From: Deltaproteobacteria bacterium
GTDB taxonomy: Bacteria; Myxococcota_A; UBA9042; DTJE01
Length of the DNA: 64,000 nucleotides
Direction: 5' to 3'
NCBI GenBank assembly: GCA_029547805.1
Contig: JAKPOP010000008.1
Location: 1-64,000, forward strand
A model generated the notes under the pieces. That model did not search any database. It had not been told where the DNA came from and worked only from the letters and a program-made list of their open reading frames with translations. This document shows, one piece after another, positions 7,093 to 11,335 of this stretch (its first letter is position 1; each line of letters opens with the position of its first letter). Both the position numbers and the translations under genes were made by a program.

Positions 7093-8679
7093 ATGAAAGA
7101 AGAGCTCGCAGAGCGGGGCGAGAGGGGGATTCCGGAGGGAACCAGGAACCTGGGGGCGGAGGAGCTGGAGAGGGCCGATTCGACCCACCGGGGGAAATCC
7201 TTCGAAAAGATCGTGGTTCCAGAGGAGGAGAGGCTTCCCTTCCGGTTCGATCGCCACTCCATCGAGGAATTCCGGGAACTCGCCGTGGAGTGCCAACTGG
7301 AAACAGTGCAAGGCGATCCACCCGTCGGCATCCAGGTGAAGGACCTTTCGAGTTCGGGACTGTCCTTCCAGGTTCACGACTCGTCGGCCTGGCAGCAAGG
7401 ACAGACCATCGCCCGTCTCAGGCTGGGCTTCGACGACTGGATCGCCTACGACGGACCTGCGGTGGTGAGTTCGATTCGCCAGATTGATCGGGGGGCGGTG
7501 CTGGGAATCCAGCTGACGGACTACCTCCTGAACATCGAGGAACTGATCCGGATGCGGGACGTCAAGCGAGCCTATACCATCCACCAGGATCGCATCCAGG
7601 AATTCGTCGGTCGCACTGAAGTCTCTGGTTGTCATGAATACCGTTCGAGAATCGCAGACTTTCTCCTGTTCCTGAGGGCGGCCAGGGAAGAGATGAATGC
7701 GCTGGAACAGGAAGTGGGATGGGAGGAGATTCACGGCCGAAATCCCAATGCGGCCAGGGACTGCCTGTTCAGGCACCTGGAGGACGGATTCGTCAGGCAG
7801 TGCGATGACTGGATCATCGCCCTCAACGAGATCTATCTGTCGGACCCTGCGACCCGAGTCGCTCCCGTCGAACACTTTTCGAGAGCGCTCCTTCACTCCT
7901 ATCTGCTCGAGGCCCCGGTACTGGAAAGGGCATTCCGCAAACCCCTCGGTTATCCCGGGGACTACATGGTCATGATCTATATCTACGACAACGACTTCGA
8001 GGGGGCGACGCTGTTCGGCAAGGCCGTTCACAAGGCGGCGGTCATGACGGCCGCTTCGAAGGCCGTCCGGGCGAGAAAGGACCTCCTGAAGTCGATCATG
8101 CATGAGAAATTCCAGGCCTTGCGTGGACGAAAGATGCCACTCCGGATCCTGTCGGTTGCGGCCGGGCCGGCAAGAGAACTGAAGGAATTCCTGGAGGAAC
8201 TGTCTCCGGAAGATCCGGTCGAGATCGTCCTCTTCGAGCAGGACAAGCAGGCGTTGGCTCACTCGAACAGGGACCTGAGGAGTCTCATCGCTCGAAGGAA
8301 GATGTCTGGAGTTCGGTTGTTCTCCCTTCGGGACACGATCACGAACCTGCTCGGAGAGAGTGATTTCCTTCGTCCGACGGCTCCCTATGACCTGATCCTG
8401 GCGTCGGGTCTCTACGACTATCTGAAGGCGCACAACGCATCAAGACTTTCCAGGAAGCTCTTCGATCTTCTGCGGGAGGGGGGGGAGTTGCTCATCGGCA
8501 ACTTTTCCCATTGCAACACCACCCGGTGGATCATGGAGAACCAGTTGGCCTGGTACCTCCATCATCGGACCGAGCAGGAGATTCTCGATTTTGCTGAATT
8601 GTGTGCGCCCCACGGCCAGTTCGCAGTCATCTCCGAACCGAATGGCGTCAATCTCTTCTTGAGGGGATGTCGCGTGTAG
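7093..8679 (+). CDS. PilZ-like domain plus PhcB-type SAM-dependent methyltransferase
   Basis: A 528-residue soluble protein. The N-terminal part (about 50-155) looks like a PilZ domain: DLSSSG at 84-89 fits the D-x-S-x-x-G motif, but the usual RxxxR arm is not evident. The C-terminal half (about 170-528) is a class I methyltransferase of the family that includes PhcB, the enzyme making methyl-ester quorum signals in Ralstonia: the signature YPGDYM starts at 287 and the SAM loop SVAAGPARE is near 354-362. The ATG at 7093 follows a G-rich tract. The kinase gene starts one base after its stop. Inference: synthesis of a methylated lipid signal. Base composition looks less GC-rich than in neighbours. 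Confidence 0.65.
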   Translation: MKEELAERGERGIPEGTRNLGAEELERADSTHRGKSFEKIVVPEEERLPFRFDRHSIEEFRELAVECQLETVQGDPPVGIQVKDLSSSGLSFQVHDSSAWQQGQTIARLRLGFDDWIAYDGPAVVSSIRQIDRGAVLGIQLTDYLLNIEELIRMRDVKRAYTIHQDRIQEFVGRTEVSGCHEYRSRIADFLLFLRAAREEMNALEQEVGWEEIHGRNPNAARDCLFRHLEDGFVRQCDDWIIALNEIYLSDPATRVAPVEHFSRALLHSYLLEAPVLERAFRKPLGYPGDYMVMIYIYDNDFEGATLFGKAVHKAAVMTAASKAVRARKDLLKSIMHEKFQALRGRKMPLRILSVAAGPARELKEFLEELSPEDPVEIVLFEQDKQALAHSNRDLRSLIARRKMSGVRLFSLRDTITNLLGESDFLRPTAPYDLILASGLYDYLKAHNASRLSRKLFDLLREGGELLIGNFSHCNTTRWIMENQLAWYLHHRTEQEILDFAELCAPHGQFAVISEPNGVNLFLRGCRV

Positions 8680-8680
8680 C

Positions 8681-11335
8681 ATGACGGACCAGGTCCAGAG
8701 TGCCGAGTTTCGGCAGCAGATCGAGGAGACATGGCTCTCGTGGTTGCAGAGACGCAACCAGACCGGCGGTCGCCTCGTCTTGCTGATGACACTGATCCTT
8801 TACCCCATCTTTGGATTCCTGGACTGGGTGACGGCTCCAGGGGAACTGGTGCAGACCCTGTGGGTGATTCGGGCCTCGGTGGTCCTCCTGGCCGCCCTGT
8901 TCTACTTCCTGCTGGTACGAAAGGGGACTGCAAGATTCTTCAATCTGTTGACATCACTGCTGACCCTCGTGACGGGCTTCGGAATCATCGCGATGGTCGT
9001 GCTTCTTGGTGGCTATGAGCATCCCTATTACGCCGGTATCAACCTCGTCATGATCGGCACGGGACTCCTGTTCCTGTGGCCGCCGAGGGTGTCTGTCCTG
9101 GTCTACGGATCCATTGTGGTGGGCTATGTCCTTGGTGGCCTGGCAATTGGGCCGTTTCTCCCGACCCAGACCGCCATCTCGAACCTGTTCTTCCTGGTCA
9201 GCACCGCGATCCTGGTCACGGTCGGGAGTTTCTTCGCCTATCGCTCCCAGTACGAGCAGGTCCGGACCAACCAGATCCTGGAACTGACCAAGGCGACCCT
9301 CCAGAAGGCCAACGAGCAGTTGATCGCCCTGGACCGGTTCAAGACCGAGTTCTTCCAGAACATCACCCATGAACTCAAGACCCCGCTGGCGATGATCCTG
9401 CCGCCCCTCGAACTGATGCGCGCGGGGGAGATGGGCCGGTTCAGCGACGAGCAGATCGCCACGATCCAGACCATGTCCCGCAATGCGATGAAACTGTTGA
9501 AACTGATCCAGGACCTGCTGGACATGGCCCGTCTGCAGGACGCCAAGGTCCGCCTTCGGATCCAGCAGGTCGATTTCGGAACCTACGTCCGGGACCTGGT
9601 CGAATCCATCCGCCCGCTGACCGACCGCAAGGGGATTGAACTGACCTTCCACCAGGACGGCGGGGCGACGCCCCTGTTCCTGGACCCGGACAAGATGGAG
9701 CGGGTGCTCGTGAACCTGCTGTCGAACGCCGCGAAGTTCACTCCGGCCAATGGCCACATCCAGGTGCTCCTGGAGCCGGAGCCCGAGGGCGTGCACCTGG
9801 TCGTCGCCGACGACGGCCCGGGCTTCCCGCCGGAGCAGAGCGAGCGGATCTTCGAACGGTTCTACCAGGTCGAGATGGGGGGCACCCGGAAATACGGCGG
9901 GACGGGCATTGGGCTGGCCCTGGCCCGGGAACTGGTGCAGTTGCACGGGGGGCGGATCTGGGCGGAGTCGCAGCCGGGCAAGGGTGCCACCTTCCACCTG
10001 CACCTGCGGTCGGGACGCCAGCACTTCCGTCCCGAGGTGCTGGAGCGGCGCCAGGAGCGCCGGGACGTGGCCTCGGGACAGCGGGCCGAGGACCTGGGAA
10101 TCGTGGACTGGACTCAGACCCTGATGGGGGACCCGAGTTTCCGGTTGCTGGAGATCGCCGAGGCCACGGAACGGCGCGTGGTGGAGCGGGACCAGAACGA
10201 GGAGGCTCGCCCCTTCACGATCCTGGTGGTGGAGGACACCGCCGACGTCGCCCGACTGGTCCACCTGACCCTGCGGCAGTTCGCCCGGATCCTGGTGGCG
10301 GAGGATGGGGCGAAGGGGCTCGAGATCGCCCGCAAGATGAGGCCGGACCTGATCGTGACGGACCTCATGATGCCTGGCATGGACGGTCTGGAGTTCACCC
10401 GGCGGGTCCGGGCCGACGAGGCTCTCAAGACCGTGCCGGTGGTCATGCTGACCGCCCGGGCCGACTCCGACGACCAGATCGCTGGCATGGAGGCCGGGGT
10501 CAGCGTCTACCTGACCAAGCCATTCCATCCCCGGATGCTGCTCTCGACGGTCCGCTCTCTGCTCCACGTCAAGGAATCGGAGGCGGACGTGGTGATGACC
10601 GGGACGATGGACCACCTGACCCGCATCGCCGGTGGCCTGGCCCACGAGATCAACAACCCCCTCAACTACGTGAAGACCTCGGTGGCCCTGGCCCGGGCGG
10701 ATTTCCAGCGGGTGCTGGACATCCTGGGGCGGGCCGGGGATCGGCCCCTGTCGGACGAGGACCGGCGGGTCGTGCGGGCCGCCGAGGACCGTTCCCGCCG
10801 GATGTTCGAGACCGCCGAGGCCGGGGTCCGGCGCATCGCCCGGACCGTCGAGTTGATGCGGCAGTACAGTCGCGAGGGATACGTCCGCCGGGTGACGACC
10901 TTCGACCCCTGGCCGGCGGTGGAGGACGTCCGGGCGATCGTGGTGCCGGCGATGGGGCGGCCCTGCGAGGTCGTCGTGGACCTCCAGGGCGAGGCCCGGA
11001 TCGAGGGCGTCCAGGAGGAATGGAACCAGTTGCTGACGAACCTGCTGCAGAACGCCATCGAGGCCACGCCGGAGCAGGGGGGGCGGGTGGAGGTCCTGGG
11101 CCGGGTGGTGGGCCGGGAGGTCCACCTGACGGTTCGGGACAACGGCCCCGGAATCTCCCGGGAGATTCGGGACCGCCTCTTCGTGCCGTTCTTCACCACC
11201 AAGGGGCCAGGAAAGGGCATGGGGCTGGGCCTCACGATCGTCTGGCGGGCGGTCCAGGCCCTCCACGGTCACATCGATGTCGCCGGCGAGGAGGGGAAGG
11301 GCGCCGAGTTCCGGGTGCGGATCCCGGCGGTCTGA
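8681..11335 (+). CDS. Membrane hybrid histidine kinase with kinase-receiver-kinase layout (PhcS-PhcR-like fusion)
   Basis: An 884-residue signalling protein. Six hydrophobic segments (about 25-190) form a membrane sensor. A first HisKA/HATPase module follows, with H230 in [12 protein letters not shown] receiver domain has acceptor D561 in [11 protein letters not shown] and K613 in YLTKPF. A second HisKA/HATPase module has H655 in [10 protein letters not shown] and ends the protein. In Ralstonia the first module resembles the layout of PhcS and receiver plus second kinase that of PhcR, which are separate proteins encoded beside phcB. Here they are one chain, one base after a PhcB-like gene. 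The ligand is unproven; a general stress or redox hybrid kinase is the alternative. Confidence 0.75.

Follow-up and report, generated by a model that had tools for sequence, protein, structure and literature searches.

Signal synthases working together with a cognate membrane histidine kinase are known from the LqsA-LqsS and CqsA-CqsS systems, in which the synthase is a PLP enzyme and not a methyltransferase like the one described here. The phc system differs from lqs in both its genes and its signal (PMC10653808). It is encoded by an operon with the order phcBSRQ (PMC8578825, PMC10653808), and a survey from 2023 assigned the cluster a restricted distribution in Betaproteobacteria (PMC10653808). 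Like the locus analysed here, phcBSRQ of Ralstonia, Cupriavidus and Paraburkholderia combines a PhcB-type methyltransferase carrying an N-terminal domain with an adjacent six-helix sensor kinase and a receiver-kinase protein. Our locus lies in a stretch of 64,000 nucleotides (the window) and differs from phcBSRQ in several respects: it belongs to a different phylum, no phcQ was found beside the pair, the PhcR-like gene is unlinked, the sensor protein has an extra kinase-receiver module before the PhcS-type kinase, and the PilZ-like domain keeps a DxSxxG motif. The gene for the PhcB-like methyltransferase (P0001, 528 aa) occupies positions 7093..8679 of the plus strand, from the ATG at 7093 to the TAG at 8679, and is followed after a single base by the ATG at 8681 of the hybrid sensor kinase gene (P0002, 884 aa; 8681..11335, plus strand), so that the ORF coordinates confirm the one-base spacing described in the initial annotation. 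The source genome (4.08 Mb in 32 contigs) holds one copy of the methyltransferase. Acidobacteriota as its phylum found no support, since none of 23 genomes gave an ADOP family match over the threshold. The pair is flanked by genes for a metallophosphoesterase and a NuoE-type 2Fe-2S protein, and inspection of these flanks revealed neither phcR nor phcQ linked to it.

In this analysis PhcB is represented throughout by orthologues encoded in Burkholderiales operons, and not by Ralstonia PhcB itself. The reference operons comprise that of a Paraburkholderia graminis plasmid (L031) and those of six genomes from a Pseudomonadota draw (L076-L081). Their gene order consists of a methyltransferase, a six-helix kinase, a receiver or receiver-kinase protein and a further receiver protein, which matches the published phcBSRQ. 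The primers published for the deletion of phcB in GMI1000 (PMC5481312) encode TIITLQ and TGVNVF, corresponding to the start and the end of the reference PhcB-type proteins. The distance between the GMI1000 codons phcB R22 and phcS L161 (PMC6989110) allows the length of phcB to be computed as approximately 470 codons, and the value for L031 is 468. R22, the residue of PhcB mutated in the same study (PMC6989110), is invariant in all seven reference PhcB-type proteins, and the histidine of the HE(V/L)NNPVN motif in the reference kinases is located within a few residues of H230, the published autophosphorylation site of PhcS (PMC11960443). Since primers, gene length, R22 and the position of the PhcS histidine agree, the reference proteins can be taken to correspond to Ralstonia phcB. 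When the published phcB primer sequence was compared with 399 genomes of the family, only scattered matches with one or two mismatches were obtained. The Paraburkholderia graminis operon (L031:5410-9785) is carried by a conjugative plasmid, and its PhcR equivalent is shortened to a receiver of 134 aa.

At the level of the synthase, Pfam, the alignment with PhcB and the presence of motifs define a class I SAM methyltransferase part at 7645..8676 (plus strand), with a Methyltransf_20 match (E 1.1e-9) covering residues 295-467 of P0001. It contains, on the same strand, a KPLGYPGDY motif (7939-7965, residues 283-291), an AAGPARE SAM-loop motif (8158-8178, residue 356) and a GVNLF motif at the C-terminal end (8644-8658). 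The YPGDYM-type signature and the SAM loop noticed in the initial annotation are thus both present; 'YPGDYM', however, is the general KPxGYxGDY motif of the methyltransferase family. P0001 aligns over its full length with the Burkholderiales PhcB-type proteins, from the N-terminal domain through the C-terminal GVN(L/V)F. The branch of the window is long, its identity to PhcB is about 22%, and its SAM motif reads AAGP where PhcB has GCGP. The K, P, G, Y, G and D of KPxGYxGD and the residues of G-L-x-D-Y-L are invariant in the window family and PhcB, and because of this the active site is probably common to both. A tree built from 66 methyltransferases unites the cassette-type proteins with PhcB (88/94) and separates them from the rhizobial stand-alone enzymes; PhcB is nested in it beside four proteins of the window phylum (85/75). 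The same grouping obtained an SH-aLRT of 82 in a wider sequence set, and a strict clade of cassette and PhcB proteins against all stand-alone enzymes was not rejected by the AU test (p 0.10). Two rows labelled as stand-alone, L033 and L115, fall inside the cassette and PhcB group, the L115 methyltransferase being cut by the contig end. The end-to-end alignment and the tree therefore bear out the proposal of a PhcB-type methyltransferase and place P0001 within the PhcB family rather than outside it, PhcB being understood here as the Burkholderiales orthologues and not as the Ralstonia protein. A single-sequence AlphaFold model of P0001 reached a pLDDT of about 37, too low for a fold search, and no match was obtained in the viral contigs searched. 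At L033:5956-8575, the methyltransferase of the cassette group is encoded on a Pseudanabaena plasmid and is convergent to genes for a HAMP histidine kinase and a response regulator.

Ahead of the catalytic part, P0001 contains an N-terminal PilZ-like domain (7231..7542, plus strand), which is defined by RxxR at residues 51-54, by DLSSSG at residues 84-89 and by family-wide PilZ matches. The Pfam match to PilZ is weak for the window (E 0.14 with the whole P0001 and 0.016 with the isolated domain); 27 of the 28 domains from the window phylum match PilZ, with a best E of 4e-7, and the matches of the domain to PDB profiles are YcgR and PilZ proteins with weak values (E 0.01-0.05). With PilZ proteins such as YcgR (PF07238) the domain shares profile similarity and the (D/N)xSxxG motif, which is retained in nearly all members of the window phylum. 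It differs from them in its fusion to a methyltransferase and in the arginine motif, which in most members is RxxR and not the canonical RxxxR; the window and L085 also carry RLPFR just before it. The N-termini of Burkholderiales PhcB gave no PilZ match and have lost the PilZ motifs, and the window-type domain is homologous to them (hhalign 94%, E 1e-7). PhcB thus carries a degenerate version of this domain, which is no new acquisition of the window protein. This homology, together with the comparison of motifs, led to the rejection of a recent PilZ gain, and the suggestion that the synthase had acquired the domain had to be abandoned. With (D/N)xSxxG kept and RxxR in place of RxxxR, the PilZ-like domain may bind c-di-GMP. 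The source genome contains 14 GGDEF matches above cut-off.

The second protein of the pair presents the six helices and the kinase-receiver-kinase arrangement that had been described for it. About six hydropathy peaks are found between residues 32 and 187 of P0002, and HisKA plus HATPase (residues 221-443), a receiver (514-624) and a second HATPase are all well above the Pfam cut-offs; the phospho-sites H230, D561 and H655 are intact. The six-helix membrane sensor (8714..9295, plus strand) is a homologue of the PhcS sensor, with an hhalign probability of 99.7% over approximately 205 columns, 20-23% of them identical. Reversed-sequence controls for sensor homology gave 12% or less (0.8% in the PhcS comparison). 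In agreement with the initial annotation, the sensor is thus of the PhcS type and not unrelated to it. No convincing Pfam or NCBIfam family was found for the sensor domain (window:8681-9370). A weak resemblance to MASE8 (best E 8e-4) was seen in two relatives. The sensor is followed on the plus strand by a first histidine kinase module, HK1 (9305..10018; H230 in HELKTPL), assigned by Pfam, motif and tree; by a receiver domain (10220..10552; D561) that according to Pfam, the receiver tree and its motif is not of the PhcR/PhcQ type; and by a second histidine kinase module, HK2 (10571..11332; H655 in HEINNPLNY), which by its motif and weakly by the tree is closest to the PhcS kinase. The HExNNPxN motif is common to HK2 and the PhcS kinases and is not found in HK1. 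P0002 does not, therefore, present a single PhcS-type kinase directly behind the sensor, since HK1 and the receiver precede HK2.

Judged from these sequence comparisons, the pair probably forms a self-contained unit that makes a signal and receives it at the membrane, in the manner of PhcB-PhcS of Ralstonia. The methyltransferase would make a methyl ester that is small and lipophilic, with a 3-hydroxy fatty acid as its most likely acid component; this ester would leave the cell and be detected by the six-helix sensor of P0002. By homology, the sensor would control autophosphorylation at H230 and/or H655, with D561 serving as an internal relay or sink, and the signal would then pass from P0002 to a PhcR-like partner, a receiver-kinase encoded on contig C23 of the source genome. 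A reading that overlaps with this one keeps the synthase-receptor pair and changes its chemistry, the product being a methyl ester other than that of a 3-hydroxy fatty acid or another methylated small molecule. Such a product would fit with the length of the window branch among the methyltransferases, the altered SAM motif and a sensor as divergent as 20-23% identical columns; it seems nonetheless rather unlikely in view of the invariant KPxGYxGD and G-L-x-D-Y-L residues, which point to an active site shared with PhcB. More doubtful still is the idea that the methyltransferase has an intracellular substrate, be it the sensor, a membrane lipid or some other protein, and that the kinase reads the resulting state with no diffusible signal involved. 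This would be consistent with a sensor lying almost wholly in the membrane, with a gene spacing, one base to overlapping, that suggests tight stoichiometry, and with a weak CheR-like profile match in one relative. However, the nearest relatives that have been characterised produce 3-hydroxy fatty acid methyl esters that diffuse (PMC6989110, PMC8578825), and the Pfam scan detected no CheR domain in P0001.

The initial annotation considered PhcR to be joined to PhcS within P0002. The kinase-receiver-kinase order does resemble PhcS followed by PhcR, but a true fusion of the two has become very improbable. In the receiver tree, a branch of 1.6 with a support of 100 splits the hybrid receivers from those of PhcR, PhcQ and the third gene, while five receivers of the third gene fall together with PhcR/PhcQ (support 96). 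HK2, unlike HK1, groups with the PhcS kinases, and not with PhcR, although this support is weak (76). In addition, a separate PhcR-like gene exists. In most relatives a receiver-kinase gene is located directly before or after the pair; it is absent from the inspected flanks of the window pair, and its orthologue in the source genome is found on another contig (G000:C23:119720-120892), with 51% identity and an E of 1e-119, the next match being at 1e-28. This orthologue carries receiver and HATPase domains. The PhcR counterpart is, then, a separate receiver-kinase gene, unlinked in the source genome, and the plainest reading of the P0002 sequence is that the protein is PhcS-like, its sensor and its PhcS-type kinase being separated by a kinase-receiver module. 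At L154:3973-11417, an unlinked PhcR-like gene lies among Pfam-less ORFs and genes for a TPR protein and an FHA protein, all of them on one strand.

The co-occurrence survey that had been proposed for the pair was carried out in 141 genomes of the window phylum, the methyltransferase being scored as present at an E below 1e-20 and the score line for the sensor being set at a gap in the match list. The methyltransferase was found in 32 of these genomes. The sensor at high score accompanied it in 29 of the 32 and appeared in one of the 109 genomes without it, or in four of the 109 if the next three sensor matches below the score line are added. The Fisher p value for this co-occurrence is 1e-25, uncorrected for the shared ancestry of the genomes. 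Order and strand of the pair are conserved across the window phylum, which indicates that the association is not due to chance, and the spacing between the genes, in the window and its relatives, goes from one base to overlapping. That the two genes are mere neighbours with no functional link can be set aside, since the pairing is conserved across this phylum and recurs in a second one, there with a cyclase as the partner. Lower-scoring sister sensors occur without the methyltransferase among the 141 genomes; a methyltransferase-linked signal is therefore not the only context of the sensor fold. In one genome with no methyltransferase detected, three sensor-domain ORFs lie within 12 kb (G013:C16:52242-64213).

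New here is the observation that in a second phylum, probably Bdellovibrionota, the partner of the methyltransferase is the sensor joined to a class III nucleotide cyclase. The methyltransferase is present in 31 of the 192 genomes of this phylum, and at 16 of the 20 loci inspected (L176-L195) its neighbour carries the same sensor fused to a cyclase. The class III cyclase domain (PF00211) was recognized in all five sensor-cyclases scanned, the GDG motif is present in 16 of 16, and the cyclase-type sensor is homologous to the window type (hhalign 99.8%). Class III adenylate/guanylate cyclases with membrane sensors therefore resemble the window protein in the sensor only, the latter carrying a kinase. 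In a quick tree, the methyltransferases of the cyclase type fall at two distinct places. A search of 68 genomes from the phylum of the Hydrogenedentes locus gave no match, an empty result that shows little by itself. The synthase and sensor core is thus joined to three outputs in different lineages, namely a plain kinase, a hybrid kinase and a class III cyclase, and as far as the sequences go the conserved unit is the putative synthase together with its sensor, whereas the outputs are exchanged. Constancy of both alongside a changing output is the pattern that a ligand-receptor relation would produce.

The presence of related synthase-sensor pairs in at least three bacterial phyla suggests that this type of signalling may be much wider than reported. 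In the non-subscription literature searched, no description of PhcB-like cassettes outside the reported phc distribution was found. It is about as likely as not that Phc represents one twig of a set of cross-phylum lipid-ester cassettes that possess a fixed core of PhcB-like synthase and six-helix receptor and exchangeable outputs in the form of histidine kinase, hybrid kinase or class III cyclase. A diffusible signal would then directly gate cAMP or cGMP synthesis in probable predatory bacteria, and outside Burkholderiales the PilZ-like domain may tie output to c-di-GMP. Should these cassettes indeed produce signals, quorum sensing by methyl esters would be a language shared across phyla, its outputs open to exchange. 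The cyclase-linked form occurs in culturable relatives, in which the ligand-receptor idea would be open to a direct test. Two of the loci inspected in the second phylum, L186 and L189, contain second methyltransferase copies that are sensor-less.
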